This document shows positions 24,042 through 32,528 of a stretch of DNA of 64,000 bases, in pieces. Numbering within the stretch: position 1 is the stretch's first letter; every line of letters starts with the position of its first letter. The notes beneath the pieces are model-generated. The model saw only the letters and a program-made list of their open reading frames with translations, had not been told where the DNA came from and did no database searches. The stretch is from Oscillospiraceae bacterium. GTDB taxonomy: Bacteria; Bacillota; Clostridia; Oscillospirales; Acutalibacteraceae. The stretch is from positions 1 to 64,000 of the forward strand of contig SVOY01000005.1 in NCBI GenBank assembly GCA_015066105.1. Reading direction: 5' to 3'. The translations under genes were made by a program, and so were the position numbers.

Positions 24042-24832
24042 TTAAAATCCGCCTTTCTTTCTCGCAAATTCAGCTGCACCCAACGCACCCATAAGCTGAG
24101 GGTCAACAGCTAATTCAATTACTTTAGTCTTTAACACTTTTTCAATCGCTTTCTTCAGACCTTCATTTTTGGCACAGCCGCCTGTAAGCGTAATGCTGTT
24201 GATAGCACCTGCTTTTTTCGCCATAATAAAGCAACGCTTGGCCACAGCCATCTGAATTCCTGCTGCAATTTCCTCGGGAGCCTTTCCTTCGCCCACAAGG
24301 GCAATAACCTCTGATTCTGCAAATACGGTGCATTGAGCAGTAACGGGAATTGCATTCTTTGCTTTAAGCGAAAGCACAGAAAACTCCTCAAGTGTCATTT
24401 CAAAGGATGTGCCATAGCTTCGTAGAAACGGCCTGTACCTGCGGCACACTTATCATTCATAGCAAAGTTTTTTACTGTTCCGTCAGGAGCAACTGCTATA
24501 CCCTTTACATCCTGACCGCCGATATCAATAATAGCTTTCACCTCGGGATTTGTAACATGTACGCCCATAGCATGGCAGGAAATTTCAGACACATTCTCGT
24601 GTGCAAAGGGCACACGGTTTCTTCCGTATCCCGTGCCGACTATATAAGACAGATCCTCCGGTTTAGAAATGCCGTCAACTTGTGAAAGACAGCTGTCAAC
24701 AGCCTGAACAGAGGACTGTTCGGCATTGATTTTACTGCGCTGAATTGTGGATGCAACAATTTTTCCGTTTTCATCTAAAATAACCGCTTTTGTGTAGGTT
24801 GAGCCTACATCACAGCCTGCAAAATATTTCAT
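24042..24832 (-). pseudogene. Acyl-CoA dehydratase activase (HgdC/BadF type), frameshifted
   Basis: The ATPase that should drive electrons into the dehydratase pair. The first frame (24832 to about 24410) carries CDVGSTYTKAVILDENG (ATP site), IDIGGQDVKGI and NDKCAAGTGRFYEAMA (cluster Cys). It then runs to a stop, while the next frame continues with SFEMTLEEFSVLSLKAK, ITLTGGCAKNEGL (second cluster Cys) and LMGALGAAEFARKK to 24042. Adding one base near 24,410 restores an activase of normal length (about 263 residues) and spacing. So this is either a recent one-base deletion or a sequencing/assembly error. RBS AAGGAATG precedes the ATG at 24832. Confidence 0.85.
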
Positions 24833-26947: not shown

Positions 26948-27195
26948 ATAAAAAATACCCGTTTTAAGAAATCGTATTTCTTTAAAACAGGTCTTATGTA
27001 TAGTATTTTTATTAAATTTGCACATTGCACCGGTTCAAAGCTGGGTGGTCTTAAAAATGGCCATTTTGGGACTATTGGGAAATAGTCGTTTTTTTCGGCA
27101 TAAAAAAGCCGAAAACCCTTGATTTTACAAGGGTTTTCGGGGACCGTCGCAATATTGCGAAGTAATTATGGGAGTACCACCCAAAAGTAAACCAC
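26948..27195. repeat. tRNA-Cys-like repeat, copy C
   Basis: Elements in the same order as copy D: an AAAACAGGTCTT hairpin, a T-arm-like CACCGGTTCAAAGCTGGGTGGTCTT (27028-27052), then GAAAACCCTTGATTTTACAAGGGTTTTC (27110-27138) and ATGGGAGTACCACCC (27168-27182), a degraded tRNA-Cys 3' end in the same orientation as the true gene. No protein gene is seen in 26,811-27,249. Confidence 0.6.
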
Positions 27196-27249: not shown

Positions 27250-29082
27250 TTATTTAAAAAATGACACTATCATTTTTATAAGAGTAATTAACCAGCATAT
27301 GTATTTTGGTATGCCCTCTTCTTCGTGAACAGGTCTGCCGCAATCCTCGCAGAGAAGTATTTCATCGCAACGATCGCAAGTTGTATTGCCGTCTTCGTTG
27401 ATGTGACCGCCTAAATCGGGGATAACTTCCTGTACTATTGTCATATCGTCACAGCGTGAGCAGTGCTGACCTGCTGTGAGACCTGTTTCGGTGCACTTGG
27501 GAGCAACATAAGCATCGATAACTATATCGTGATCAAGAGCTGCTTTTTCTACATAAGTTGTGTAAGTACAATCTGTACAGTATTCATATGCATCCCAACC
27601 GATCTCTGTGCAAGTGTTTGCTTTTGCTTCAACATTCACGATTTCATGTGATGCAGGGATTTCTACATAAGTTGTATAGTCACATTCTGTGCAGTATATG
27701 TAAGCGTCCCAACCAACTGTTGTACAAGTCTTTGCCTTTGCATCAACCTGAGTGATAACATGGCCAACAACACTATCAGAAATATAAACCGCTGTACCGA
27801 CAGTTGCTTTGCACCAATATAATTTGCCGCATTCAGGGTTCTGTAAGGTTTTGCCTGTTTCACCCTCAAGTTCTGTATCTTTTATAACACTGAATTCAAG
27901 TTCAACGGGATTTTCCGCGTCGATCCTCCACGTGGCAACTGTAACTCTTTCATCAGCATCGAATTGAATTGTTGCGGTCTTTTCATTTCCTAACATCAAA
28001 AAATAATTACCGACTCTTAAGTCTACAAACTTTAGATCTGAATCTGTTGAAACCTTTAATATGTCGCCTTTTTTAAAATCGTATTCAAATAAATACCTGC
28101 TGGAAAAATCAACATCATAACTACCGATATTTTCTTCTTCAACTTCATACCACTGGAAGGTTGCAGCGGGATTATTGAAGTCAACTGTATAATTGTTTTC
28201 TGCAGAAGGCTGCTGAGTGAAAGCATTTCGTGCCATGCAGACATACTTTGTATCGCGTTCTTCGTCATACTCTGTTTTTTCATGGAATAAGTAGCCGTAA
28301 CCCGCTTCTACGTTAATTTTATATTTTTCAGCGTCCTCGGCAGATTTGATTCCTTTTAAAATTTCAATCTTACCCAAACAATCAATTATTGAATCTATTT
28401 CCAGAGCATCTCCTGTATAGTCTGTTACATCAATAATCATTTCCTTACGATCTGTATAACTGGACAGCCGAAGCTCAATCTGAGCATAACCCTCTCCGCT
28501 TTCAAGAACTACATCACCAAGTTTCAATGTTTTATCTATATCGTAACTATTACAGCAATACACAGCATAACCGTTGCTTACAATTTTACCACCGTAAAGA
28601 TTTGCACTTGCCCACGCTGCACTTATAGAGTAACGTTCTGTACCGGTTGAAGTGTTTTCTATAGTACCGCCGTAAAGGCTGAAAACTGCCGTCACATTAT
28701 TGGCCCGTATAGTAGTGTACTGCCTTGAGGTGATTTTGCCTGTTTTGTCTGTTGAAGTATCATAAACAGATAAAGGAGCATTCAAATTAATATCGCAGTC
28801 ATTCAAATTCCATATATATCCGTTGAGGTCGAGGACTGCTTCGCCTTCAACAAAAAGATAAACAGTTGTTGAAATATCTTCTGTCAGTTTATATTTGCCT
28901 GCAGGAAGATCGTATGTACTACCACTTTTTTCCGCCACCTCACCATCGATATAAAGCACACCGTCAACATCTGTGAGCACCTTAGCGTCGCTGAAATCAG
29001 GTATTTCATCTGCCGCAAAGGCAAAGGGTACGGTTGTTGCAATCATCAAGATTGCAAGGATGATTGATAATGTTTTTTTCAT
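27250..29082 (-). CDS. Exported beta-helix-like protein with Cys-rich repeats and shared C-tail
   Basis: 610 residues. Signal peptide of about 24 residues ending FAFAAD. The middle is a probable right-handed beta-helix (YGGTIENTSTGTERYS, NLYGGKIVSNGYAVY). Then come repeats of the form HxIVxVxAKAxTCTExGWDAYxYC (about residues 440-570), each with several cysteines. The end is LLCEDCGRPVHEE plus an apolar helix (YICWLITLIKMIVSFF), shared with the next two genes. Start behind AAAGGAG. The signal peptide and leader DNA are nearly identical to those of the gene at 30635, pointing to recent duplication. Function unknown; cell-surface display is inferred. Confidence 0.75.
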   Translation of the reverse strand: MKKTLSIILAILMIATTVPFAFAADEIPDFSDAKVLTDVDGVLYIDGEVAEKSGSTYDLPAGKYKLTEDISTTVYLFVEGEAVLDLNGYIWNLNDCDINLNAPLSVYDTSTDKTGKITSRQYTTIRANNVTAVFSLYGGTIENTSTGTERYSISAAWASANLYGGKIVSNGYAVYCCNSYDIDKTLKLGDVVLESGEGYAQIELRLSSYTDRKEMIIDVTDYTGDALEIDSIIDCLGKIEILKGIKSAEDAEKYKINVEAGYGYLFHEKTEYDEERDTKYVCMARNAFTQQPSAENNYTVDFNNPAATFQWYEVEEENIGSYDVDFSSRYLFEYDFKKGDILKVSTDSDLKFVDLRVGNYFLMLGNEKTATIQFDADERVTVATWRIDAENPVELEFSVIKDTELEGETGKTLQNPECGKLYWCKATVGTAVYISDSVVGHVITQVDAKAKTCTTVGWDAYIYCTECDYTTYVEIPASHEIVNVEAKANTCTEIGWDAYEYCTDCTYTTYVEKAALDHDIVIDAYVAPKCTETGLTAGQHCSRCDDMTIVQEVIPDLGGHINEDGNTTCDRCDEILLCEDCGRPVHEEEGIPKYICWLITLIKMIVSFFK

Positions 29083-29120
29083 TGTTTTTCTCCTTTCTGG
29101 GATTTGATAAGTTATATGTT

Positions 29121-30635
29121 TTATGCAAACATTGATTTAACAATGTTGATAAACATAATGATAAGACAGATTAAGTTCTGAGCAAAGCTGTCGTCGTGTA
29201 CGGGTCTGCCGCAATCCTCACAAGTGAGCTGTTCGCCGCCGTTGTCGCACTTGCCGTCGCCGTCAGCGTCGGTGTGAGTGAGTGCAGGAACAGTTTCCTG
29301 AATAATTGTCATAGCATCGCAGCGTGAGCAGTGCTGACCTGCAGTAAGACCTGTTTCTGTGCAAGTGGCAGCTACTGCTTCGTCGATAACGATGTCATGA
29401 TTGAGAGCTGCTTTTTCTGCGTAGGTTGTGTAATCACAGGCTGTGCAATACTCATAAGCATCCCAACCGATTTCTGTGCAAGTGGGAGCCTTTGCATCAA
29501 CTTCAACTATATCATGACCGAGTGCATAACCGGTAACATATTTTATAGTTTCGTCACATGTTGAACAATACCATTCAGTTACTTCGTCATCCGTGCAGGA
29601 TGCCGATATATTGCCCTGTTGTACGCAATAATGCATTGATACGTTCTGCCATTCAAATTCACTCATAGGTCCTTCATAAATTTCTTGGAACTGTCTTTCT
29701 GTACCGAGATAATGTACTACTGAATCCAATGCCATAATACCATCTCTCTCTATTGTTTCAACTGTATCAGGAACTACCACTGAGCCACCAACAAGTTTGA
29801 TTGTGTTCTCAGGTATTATTTTTACGCCATAAGGAACAACACACTTATAATCCGTAATTTGTGCACAAATAAGAGTACCGTCTATTTTGCTGAAGAAGCT
29901 TCCGTTCGCAACACTTACATATTCGTTGTCTTTGTCTGCTATTACTTCAACCGGAGTCTTGATATTTGCGAAAATATCTTCACCAACAGAAGAAAGCTTT
30001 GCCATTCCGATATCTAATATTTTAAGAGATTGGCATTGATAGAATGCTTCTTCACCAATTTCCTCAACACTATCAGGCAAAACAACTTTTTCGATATATG
30101 GGCAGCGATCAAAAGCCTTCTTATTTATTTTCACAACACCGTCAGGTATATTGTATGTACCGCTGAATGCTTTACAAGCAACCCTAAGCAACTCTTTACC
30201 GTCTTTTGAAAAGAGAACATTGTCAACAGATTTATAATATTCATTATCTTCTGAAACAGTTATTGTTTCAAGGTCACGGCAATAGAAGGTAGTATAGATC
30301 GGTCCGATACTCTTAACATCCTTGCCTATAGATATTGATGTAGCGAAAAAACAGCCATAAGCAGTGTAATTAGCCATACTTGTTACACCGTCTTCAATTA
30401 TGATTTTTTTAATATCATTTGTATAGCCATACCATGGTCGTTTAGCGAGGGTAGCAAAGTTTTGCATGTCACCTGTACCGCTGATAGTAAGTGTACCGTC
30501 AGAGTCAAGAGTCCATTTTACATTTCCGCCGTTAGCGCCGCAATTACCGCTTTTAACGATATCAGCCGCAAAGGCCATGGGGATTGTGGTTACAATCATT
30601 AAGATTGCAAGGATGATTGATAATGTTTTTTTCAT
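29121..30635 (-). CDS. Exported BspA-like leucine-rich-repeat protein with shared C-tail
   Basis: 504 residues. Signal peptide ending MAFAAD. GTLTISGTGDMQNF begins a BspA/LRR_5-type region (repeats such as IPDGVVKINKKAFDRCPYIE and LPDSVEEIGEEAFYQCQSLK, about residues 40-300). Two Cys-rich repeats like those of the neighbour follow (TCTEIGWDAYEYCTACDYTT), then LTCEDCGRPVHDD and an apolar tail ending KSMFA. BspA-type LRR proteins often bind host or bacterial surface proteins. ATG behind AAAGGAG, 39 bp after the ubiquitin-like gene. Confidence 0.8.
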   Translation of the reverse strand: MKKTLSIILAILMIVTTIPMAFAADIVKSGNCGANGGNVKWTLDSDGTLTISGTGDMQNFATLAKRPWYGYTNDIKKIIIEDGVTSMANYTAYGCFFATSISIGKDVKSIGPIYTTFYCRDLETITVSEDNEYYKSVDNVLFSKDGKELLRVACKAFSGTYNIPDGVVKINKKAFDRCPYIEKVVLPDSVEEIGEEAFYQCQSLKILDIGMAKLSSVGEDIFANIKTPVEVIADKDNEYVSVANGSFFSKIDGTLICAQITDYKCVVPYGVKIIPENTIKLVGGSVVVPDTVETIERDGIMALDSVVHYLGTERQFQEIYEGPMSEFEWQNVSMHYCVQQGNISASCTDDEVTEWYCSTCDETIKYVTGYALGHDIVEVDAKAPTCTEIGWDAYEYCTACDYTTYAEKAALNHDIVIDEAVAATCTETGLTAGQHCSRCDAMTIIQETVPALTHTDADGDGKCDNGGEQLTCEDCGRPVHDDSFAQNLICLIIMFINIVKSMFA

Positions 30636-30674
30636 TGTTTTTCTCCTTTCGGGAATTTGATAAGTTATATGTTT

Positions 30675-31112
30675 TTATGCAAACATTGATTTAACAATGT
30701 TGATAAACATAAGGATAAGGCAAATAATATTCTCTGCAAAGCTGTCACCGTGTGCGGGTCTGAGGCAATCAGGGCAGGTTTCGTCAGGTGTCGGTGTTTC
30801 TTCCTCACCGCGAATACGTAAAACAAGATGAAGAGTTGATTCCTTCTGAATATTGTAATCCGAAAGAGTTTTTCCTTCCTCAAGCTGCTTTCCGGCAAAA
30901 ATCAATCTCTGCTGATCGGGAGGAATTCCCTCTTTCTCCTGAATTTTTGCCTTAATAGCATCAATAGAGTCATTAGGTTCCACTTCAAGGGTTATAGTTA
31001 AGCCCTCGAGGGTTTTAACAAAAATCTGCATAGCTGATGCAGACAATGTCATTGTGAGCATCATTACTACAGCCAACAGTAATGATAATGTTTTCTTTAA
31101 TGTGTTTTTCAT
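30675..31112 (-). CDS. Exported ubiquitin-domain protein
   Basis: 145 residues: signal peptide 1-27 ending SASA, then residues 28-103 align with eukaryotic ubiquitin without gaps, 64 of 76 identical by my count. Cleavage after ASA would place ubiquitin Met1 exactly at the mature N-terminus. The hydrophobic patch (Leu8, Ile44, Val70), Lys6/27/29/33/48/63, Arg72, Arg74 and Gly75 are kept; Lys11 is Leu and Gly76 is Glu. A 42-residue tail follows with CPDCLRPAH and an apolar helix ending KSMFA, shared with the next two proteins. It lacks the free Gly-Gly needed for conjugation. It starts four bases after the TetR stop codon. Export is predicted; the target is unknown. Bacteroides fragilis is known to export a ubiquitin homologue (BfUbb). 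Confidence 0.92.
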
Positions 31113-31116
31113 TGGT

Positions 31117-31842
31117 TTATTCTCCTTTCGGGAAATTAGTCTTTATATCGAGTTCCTTGAAAACACTTTGCACCGCCTCTTTTGCAACGGTTGCAAAGTC
31201 AATTTTTTGAATAAATTCAAGCGCTTCATTGATTATTTTCTCTTCTGCCTTGTAAATACGCAACAGCATTGTTACGAGTCTTTTTGCTTTTGACTCAATA
31301 GTAAAATACATATCGCAAGGAATGGTCATATATGCTCTCATTATGCCCATTGAAGCGATTTCAGTTTCGTAAAAATCCTTAATTTCAAAAGTCGGGAATA
31401 TTTCACTGAAAGCTTCATACATCATATTTGTTCTGCGTTTAAGGACTTCTTCGCTTGTTTTCGGCATTGAATAACCTGAAAGGTAAAGATCTCGCATATA
31501 CTCGTTCATCTCTGCCATATAAAGCTGCAAAACGTCATTGGCTATGAAGATAAGCATACGGTCACCGGTAAGCTTTTTTGAAACAGCATCCGATGCCTCT
31601 GTAACGCCGTCGAGAAACCTTGTTACAAGTAAGCCTAAAATTTCCTCTTTACTGCTGAACTCATAAAGGATTTTGCTTTTCAACACGCCTGAAAGCTTTG
31701 CTATGTCCGTAAATGTGGTACGCTCAAAGCCTTTCTGCATAAACAGTGCCGTTGAAGCGGTAAGGATTTTCCTGTGCAACTCAGCAGTTGCTTCTTCACT
31801 TCTTATGTTCGCCAAATCATCAACTCCATTCGCAATTCGCAT
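31117..31842 (-). CDS. TetR-family regulator, first gene of the ubiquitin-domain operon
   Basis: 241 residues. N-terminal TetR DNA-binding domain: [20 protein letters not shown] (residues ~25-44), [20 protein letters not shown] (HTH) and [12 protein letters not shown]. The C-terminal ligand domain is of the usual size but unrecognised. No strong ribosome binding site precedes the ATG at 31842; a TTG nine codons in, behind TGGAG, is an alternative start. Its last codons (AAA GGA GAA TAA) serve as the ribosome binding site of the ubiquitin-domain gene, so the two are tightly linked. It probably represses its own operon. Confidence 0.8.
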
Positions 31843-31874: not shown

Positions 31875-31903
31875 ATATTAACACAAGCAATTAAAACTGT
31901 CAA
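31875..31903 (-). promoter_or_regulatory. Promoter of the TetR/ubiquitin operon
   Basis: TTGACA (31903-31898), 17-bp spacer, TAATAT (31880-31875). The distance to the TetR ATG at 31842 leaves a leader of roughly 25 bases. Confidence 0.65.
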
Positions 31904-32209: not shown

Positions 32210-32284
32210 TGGAGGTACCACCCGGATTTGAACCGGGGAATAACGGTTTTGCAGACCGTGGCCTTACCACTTGGCTATGGTACC
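32210..32284 (-). tRNA. tRNA-Cys (anticodon GCA)
   Basis: 75 bases including an encoded CCA. Acceptor GGTACCA/TGGTACC, U discriminator as usual for Cys, anticodon loop CTGCAAA, T-arm CCCGGTTCAAATCCGGG. Last of four tRNAs. Its 3' part is the apparent source of the dispersed repeats. Confidence 0.95.
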
Positions 32285-32287
32285 GTG

Positions 32288-32363
32288 TGGAGCGGATGAC
32301 GAGGCTCGAACTCGCTACCTCCACCTTGGCAAGGTGGCGCTCTACCAGATGAGCTACATCCGC
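32288..32363 (-). tRNA. tRNA-Gly (anticodon GCC)
   Basis: 76 bases with encoded CCA. Acceptor GCGGATG/CATCCGC, anticodon loop TTGCCAA, T-loop GTTCGAGCC. Three bases separate it from tRNA-Cys. Confidence 0.95.
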
Positions 32364-32372
32364 ATATTAAAT

Positions 32373-32449
32373 TGGCGACCCGGAACGGGCTCGAACCGTC
32401 GACCTCTAGCGTGACAGGCTAGCGTTCTAACCAACTGAACTACCGGGCC
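32373..32449 (-). tRNA. tRNA-Asp (anticodon GTC)
   Basis: 77 bases with encoded CCA. Acceptor GGCCCGG, with G73 as usual for Asp, anticodon loop CTGTCAC, D-arm TAGTTCAGTTGGTTAGAA. Confidence 0.95.
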
Positions 32450-32452
32450 AAA

Positions 32453-32528
32453 TGGTGGGAACAACAGGGCTCGAACCTGTGACCCTCTGCTTGTAAGGCA
32501 GATGCTCTCCCAGCTGAGCTATGCTCCC
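32453..32528 (-). tRNA. tRNA-Val (anticodon TAC)
   Basis: 76 bases with encoded CCA. Acceptor GGGAGCA/TGTTCCC, D-arm TAGCTCAGCTGGGAGAGCA, anticodon loop CTTACAA. First gene of the tRNA cluster. Confidence 0.95.

Follow-up and report, generated by a model that had tools for sequence, protein, structure and literature searches.

A ubiquitin gene of Entamoeba type, predicted to encode an exported protein, in an Oscillospiraceae bacterium

The ubiquitin gene and its neighbourhood

The window analysed here, i.e. the whole stretch of 64,000 nucleotides at positions 1 to 64,000 of contig SVOY01000005.1 (Oscillospiraceae bacterium, assembly GCA_015066105.1), carries on its minus strand an open reading frame at 30675-31112 that starts with ATG and encodes a protein of 145 amino acids. 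The protein belongs to the ubiquitin family (Pfam PF00240, 100.2 bits for a cut-off of 25.4) and its gene is the only ubiquitin copy in the source genome. A ribosome-binding sequence, AAAGGAG (31122-31128, minus strand like the gene and all other parts of its apparent operon), ends 9 nt 5′ of the ATG. The translated sequence consists of a signal peptide (residues 1-27; 31032-31112) whose final SASA is followed at once by Met1 of ubiquitin, a ubiquitin domain (residues 28-103; 30804-31031) that alignment and Foldseek assign to the Entamoeba type, and a tail of 42 residues (30678-30803) with a C..C....H motif and a hydrophobic helix (30678-30782), the helix being present in structure models.

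An initial annotation of this DNA had counted 64 of 76 positions identical to human ubiquitin without gaps over residues 28-103. Our recount gave exactly this figure, and a PDB alignment over 75 residues agrees with it. The Leu8/Ile44/Val70 patch, Lys48 and Lys63 are intact as the annotation had said, Lys11 is replaced by Leu and Gly76 by Glu, so that the domain ends in Gly-Glu followed by the tail instead of the Gly75-Gly76 of a modifier. The signal peptide ending in ASA exactly at Met1 was also seen as described, and export, for which this leader is the evidence, is probable. Structure prediction, one of the checks that the annotation had suggested along with a homologue search and a phylogeny, left the ubiquitin part unfolded when run from the single sequence (mean pLDDT 60.9), while with 41 sequences the domain scored about 86-90 and adopted the ubiquitin fold.

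The gene appears to lie in an operon of four genes (27250-31842). A TetR-family regulator (31117-31842; TetR_N, 42.4 bits) is situated 4 bases 5′ of the ubiquitin gene. On the 3′ side, gaps of 39 and 38 bases lead to a gene for an exported BspA-type LRR protein (29121-30635; LRR_5, 72.5 bits) and then to one for an exported 610-aa protein (27250-29082) known from its open reading frame, which had no Pfam match and has a 75% identical counterpart 3′ of the ubiquitin gene of locus L018. This is the run of genes with an LRR protein and a repeat protein that had originally been annotated. A promoter-like site 5′ of the TetR gene (31875-31903; TTGACA and TAATAT with a spacing of 17 and a TG) and a terminator-like hairpin with a T run 3′ of the last gene (27109-27140) would delimit the unit; both come from consensus scans, which found 24 promoter-like sites for 15.9 expected and nine hairpins for 4.4 expected. 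A tRNA cluster (Val-Asp-Gly-Cys; 32210-32528) is found immediately 5′ of the operon. Elsewhere in the window, two overlapping frames at 24042-24832 match a BcrAD/BadFG activator by one half each, and the gene may have been split or have suffered a frameshift.

All three products of the apparent operon that have a leader also have the tail with the Cys/His motif and helix. The tail of the LRR protein is 77% identical to that of the ubiquitin protein and that of the 610-aa protein 31%, with the Cys and His residues kept. One other exported protein ends in the same way, which makes four proteins of the source genome, with two further weak matches of 22.0 and 12.1 bits. The window tail matched no Pfam or NCBIfam model, and from its make-up we would guess that it attaches the protein to the membrane or wall. 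Among nine neighbours scanned with Pfam there was neither a toxin- or immunity-like family nor an E1, E2 or E3 family; two of the nine matched no family whatsoever. A search of the source genome for an E2 was likewise negative, and the same search found none in the controls either.

Seven more loci (L018, L048, L055, L050, L065, L038 and L026) likewise have a TetR gene 5′ of a ubiquitin gene, with identities to the window TetR from 96% down to 24%; Pfam TetR_N was confirmed in L065, L038 and L026. L050 is cut by a contig end, L065 has a truncated ubiquitin frame and the ubiquitin of L038 is divergent. No TetR profile was found 5′ of the gene in eleven Entamoeba-type loci (L049, L051, L052, L053, L056, L057, L059, L062, L099, L019 and L020), of which L056 has a weak TetR match 3′ of the gene on the opposite strand, and L047 starts too near its ubiquitin gene for a call. 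Leader-bearing downstream neighbours were LRR proteins in L047 and L065, the counterpart of the 610-aa protein in L018 and a GLUG-repeat protein in L055, with a match below the cut-off in L048. At L065:3209-6193 the TetR, ubiquitin and LRR genes follow each other in the window order, the ubiquitin frame stopping after residue 56 and looking broken.

The ubiquitin gene might have been the product of a chimeric assembly or of amoebal contamination, a concern raised in the initial annotation, and the source, with 27 contigs and a completeness of 85%, does appear to have been assembled from a metagenome. The frame lies, however, inside a contig of 126,950 bases among ordinary bacterial genes and tRNAs, and has a bacterial leader and ribosome-binding site. 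Its GC content of 0.39 matches that of its operon mates (0.39-0.40 for the four genes), though it is below that of three flanking aromatic-pathway genes (0.44-0.48; window, 0.42). Synonymous divergence among copies reaches saturation. Above all, independently assembled genomes contain the identical leader-ubiquitin junction together with the TetR neighbour, and these copies rule the artefact out to the point that we give it practically no credence. The signal-peptide stretch differs at no base from those of L047 and L048.

Origin of the ubiquitin domain

Human ubiquitin turned out not to be the nearest eukaryotic relative; of the eukaryotic ubiquitins found, that of Entamoeba is closest. Among the matches listed, the best single-ubiquitin PDB chain was 4gsw (147.4 bits; others 132-135), entitled in Foldseek as ubiquitin from Entamoeba histolytica. 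Identity to this chain is 96% over 74 columns, compared with 82-86% for most other ubiquitin chains in the first 50 rows. Of 76 positions, 72 are identical to Entamoeba ubiquitin, and all eight Entamoeba-versus-human differences are present in the window protein.

A tree of 88 ubiquitin domains places that of Entamoeba, with an end branch of zero, in a set of 18 rows (support 96/91), the other members being the window and 16 further prokaryotic rows. The input was 92 loci, namely the best 80 of at least 333 relatives plus 12 IMG/VR loci. Fifteen loci without a leader were dropped (L067, L073, L074, L075, L077, L078, L096, L102, L105, L116, L127, L129, L130, L135 and L138), of which L078 was restored as a eukaryote-like row; the truncated L065 was left out, and the window and seven others were added to give 84 prokaryotic rows (seven from IMG/VR, one labelled Methanothrix). 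Divergent mid-protein ubiquitins from the genus, family and class surveys stand outside the tree. The bootstrap was unsettled (correlation 0.979), and the number of columns is small relative to that of rows.

A second affinity was seen for L027 and L029, which pair in the tree (support 99/96) and are of Trichomonas type. The best single PDB chain for L027 is 5xy3_m (141.7 bits versus about 124 for others), from an entry described as a Trichomonas vaginalis ribosome (PMC8860606). Over the first 71 positions L027 has 69 and L029 63 matches to Trichomonas ubiquitin. A single prokaryotic origin of all 84 prokaryotic rows versus five eukaryotic-type rows was rejected (p-AU 2.0e-6), and thus ubiquitin entered prokaryotes more than once. 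The best explanation of the window gene would be acquisition from an Entamoeba-type gut amoeba. With 72 columns in the tree and only a small number of eukaryotic references, the actual donors may turn out to be different protists of these kinds that have yet to be sampled.

Selection on the ubiquitin domain and loss of its conjugation end

Compared with the window, dN/dS of the ubiquitin part was 0.093 for L047, 0.136 for L048, 0.110 for L009, 0.041 for L050 and 0.047 for L055; by these codon comparisons (0.04-0.14) the domain is under purifying selection. Against the remaining Entamoeba-type loci, synonymous change is at or close to saturation, yet the proteins are still 80-95% identical. The tail is held more loosely than the ubiquitin part, with dN/dS of about 0.4 against L048, 0.5 against L009 and 0.2 against L047.

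Seventeen Entamoeba-type copies were scored residue by residue against Entamoeba ubiquitin. Gly76 is changed in all 17, Gly75 in nine, Arg72 in nine, Leu73 in 11 and Leu71 in eight; not one copy has a Gly-Gly end, and 42% of residues 71-76 are unchanged versus about 94% of the body. The Phe4 patch (residues 2, 4 and 14) is unchanged throughout, Lys63 is intact in 17, Lys48 in 16 and Lys11 in eight copies. Decay has thus struck the conjugation end and spared the body. The Ile44 patch showed no special conservation in these copies (94.8% unchanged versus 94.0% at the other positions of 1-70), and mean entropy over 81 sequences was 0.54 for the patch and 0.63 for the rest. Binding is therefore not singled out by conservation, which counts against a specific role of this patch.

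Relatives in other bacteria

PF00240 was found in nine of 34 genomes of the genus, a patchy distribution that marks the gene as dispensable, and above the cut-off in 19 of 398 genomes of the family and five of 391 drawn from the class. The homologue search that had been suggested returned many bacterial relatives, at least 333 from several phyla in a species-level collection. They were found by two peptide patterns, and the best 80 of 333 were kept, which favours close relatives and the positions within the patterns. The initial annotation was right about a ubiquitin with a predicted export but had overlooked many other exported bacterial ubiquitins as well as the tail common to the neighbours.

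By our own hydrophobicity rule, 60 of the best 80 relatives have a leader directly 5′ of Met1, with alanine at −1 in 57. Eight others have a leader and a short linker, two a leader further upstream (L108 and L122) and ten no leader. Gly-Gly occurs at 75-76 in eight of the 60 and ends the protein only in Dyella sp. OK004 (L069:4001-4228), where a leader precedes a bare ubiquitin of 76 residues that is possibly conjugable given this end; it is likewise the protein end in the IMG/VR locus L128. Nine of the best 80 are named strains without a MAG label, including Dyella sp. OK004, Leeia oryzae DSM 17879 and Ruminococcus albus 8, and all nine have a leader (with a linker in R. albus 8). As to possible carriage by phages, no match was found in 50,697 phage records. 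IMG/VR yielded 12 loci, seven with a leader directly at Met1 and none of Entamoeba type by tree or by eye.

The theme across the relatives appears to be export with ubiquitin as the first domain. Sorting modules above the curated cut-off follow ubiquitin in L103 (Dockerin), L109 (Autotransporter) and L131 (IPTL-CTERM). The PEP-CTERM of L098 exceeds the Pfam cut-off and is slightly below that of NCBIfam, and the T9SS tail of L104 is above the NCBIfam and below the Pfam cut-off. Ends resembling NPQTG or SPKTG were seen by eye in L052, L056 and L027, with model scores below the cut-off or absent. The IMG/VR contigs L131, L132 and L133 encode near-identical proteins of 151 aa with a leader, ubiquitin and an IPTL-CTERM-like end (family scan on L131).

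Other arrangements were also encountered. L061:3902-5040, a Clostridia record from water buffalo rumen, contains a tandem pair of exported ubiquitin genes. Three small ubiquitin-like proteins are encoded in tandem at L037, L044 and L046 (G125:C22:30899-31909); the stretch ALSEEELELVIGG lies 5′ of at least two of them and recalls double-glycine peptide leaders, so that these could possibly be a peptide-export version of the same theme. In L013, L014, L030, L032 and L034 a divergent ubiquitin lies midway in a large protein beside repeats of InlB-like appearance on visual inspection.

Ruminant cecum, colon or rectum is the source of all 11 RGIG records of Entamoeba type and of none of the five other RGIG records among the best 80; those five were obtained from rumen (two), omasum, abomasum or ileum (Fisher p 0.0002). 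The groups were drawn up once the data were known, related records lack independence, and L065 was included through 53 Entamoeba matches in 56 positions. Two of these five, L061 and L083, fall into the next wider tree set of 21 rows.

Discussion

The window protein is most likely a surface-held ubiquitin mimic that would serve in binding and could not be conjugated. The latter had been proposed in the initial annotation and agrees with the Gly-Glu end, the 42 residues behind it and the absence of Gly-Gly from all 17 Entamoeba-type copies. We envisage that an Entamoeba-type ubiquitin gene was captured and turned into a gene for an exported bacterial protein, which the tail would hold at the cell surface after export. 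The bacterium would then display ubiquitin with a free N-terminus, open to ubiquitin-binding proteins and beyond the reach of activation or attachment. With less assurance, the displayed ubiquitin may act as a decoy or ligand in encounters with bacterivorous gut protists, and we put the probability of such a protist-directed role at about 0.42. The donors look like gut protists, and this is what a role against co-resident bacterivorous protists would explain. A ubiquitin on the cell surface would, on the other hand, meet cytosolic ubiquitin-binding proteins only upon leakage of the phagosome. Moreover, the anchoring function of the tail is guessed from its composition and the tail is less constrained than the ubiquitin part, eleven other Entamoeba-type loci lack a TetR gene on the 5′ side, and the donor references are few.

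The closest known parallel is BfUbb of Bacteroides fragilis, reported to have a leader ending exactly at Met1 and no terminal glycine (PMC3352274, PMC5705921), to end in a cysteine, to be present in supernatants and to be nearest to viral ubiquitins (PMC3352274). The window protein resembles it in its predicted export, its signal peptide junction at Met1 and its missing terminal glycine. It is no BfUbb orthologue, however, being 57% identical to BfUbb (8hm2, 74 aligned) versus 96% to Entamoeba ubiquitin; BfUbb was absent from our tree. The window gene also differs in its TetR gene on the 5′ side and in the exported proteins that its partners in the apparent operon encode. An antibacterial role has to be considered here, in which the ubiquitin body binds a target in rival bacteria, by contact because the tail anchors it. 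A synthetic BfUbb of 76 aa is reported to inhibit some B. fragilis strains (PMC5705921), and sensitivity is reported to depend critically on one residue of a peptidyl-prolyl isomerase (as cited in PMC12396204). Yet the window protein has the low identity just given, a nearer eukaryotic source and a tail of 42 residues where BfUbb ends with its cysteine at about residue 76 (PMC3352274), and none of its nine scanned neighbours matched a toxin- or immunity-like family (two of the nine matched no family). We consider such a role unlikely.

A ubiquitin that has no partner and is just a sturdy cap or spacer, resistant to proteases, on the free ends of surface proteins would fit the relatives in which it is mostly the first mature domain and is joined to bodies as diverse as LRR, GLUG and InlB-like repeats, dockerin and autotransporter, and also an Ile44 patch whose conservation does not exceed that of the remaining body. 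But a mere cap would have no need to stay about 94% Entamoeba-like in its body despite synonymous sites at or near saturation, and the window protein has almost nothing else to cap, which makes this rather unlikely for the gene studied here. Quite improbable in our opinion is a ubiquitin directed at the animal host, for example one dampening its immune cells. Roles of extracellular ubiquitin have been reported (PMC10892293) and many carriers among the best 80 of 333 come from ruminant guts, but the carriers include strains of Dyella, Conexibacter, Leeia and Methylolobus, genera that suggest soil or water, and the mimic is of Entamoeba and not of mammalian type.

The window protein has the fold of E. 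histolytica ubiquitin (4gsw) and differs from it in its leader, its tail and the loss of Gly76. The products of the bacterial anti-phage ubiquitination operons Bil and CBASS, Pup and Urm1 are prokaryotic ubiquitin-world proteins that are cytoplasmic and conjugated; unlike these, the window protein has a leader and lacks a Gly-Gly end. On R. albus 7 plasmid pRUMAL01 (L012:5932-6672), an exported ubiquitin gene lies amid genes for leader-bearing proteins, downstream of a gene with a phosphatidylinositol-specific phospholipase C domain. Its product, WP_013483628, shares the leader directly 5′ of ubiquitin and neighbours with leaders. It is 74% identical, plasmid-borne, has a different C-terminal domain, and clusters in the tree with further copies of Ruminococcus type outside the Entamoeba set. 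It is already labelled 'ubiquitin family protein', which qualifies the earlier statement that a tailed Clostridia version is undescribed; for the rest the statement stands, as no such description was among the literature matches listed. For exported or eukaryotic-like ubiquitin in Clostridia or in bacteria at large, the matches listed in the open-access literature comprised only BfUbb papers, reviews and unrelated work, with no paper on a wider class of exported bacterial ubiquitins.

Ubiquitin is regarded as a hallmark of eukaryotes, and BfUbb as the one secreted bacterial exception that is well described; in 2017 B. fragilis was counted among a few bacteria with a eukaryotic-like ubiquitin (PMC5705921). 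The present data suggest that it is a recurrent module of exported bacterial proteins, acquired more than once from protists whose lineage can be identified as to type. In the Entamoeba-type group the body is nearly unchanged and the modifier end has been stripped, which sets the role of ubiquitin as a ligand apart from its role as a tag and offers a tangible starting point for asking how gut bacteria may cope with protists that feed on them. As a tentative generalization, with the odds somewhat against it, several phyla may display captured protist ubiquitin on the free ends of exported proteins held at the surface, and gut Clostridia may have acquired it in independent events from two or more kinds of gut bacterivore, the Entamoeba and the Trichomonas type. 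Since named strains carry the gene (Ruminococcus albus 8, Dyella, Leeia), these ideas are testable. If true, each bacterium would show the ubiquitin of its own predators, an unrecognised and recurrent form of cross-kingdom mimicry.
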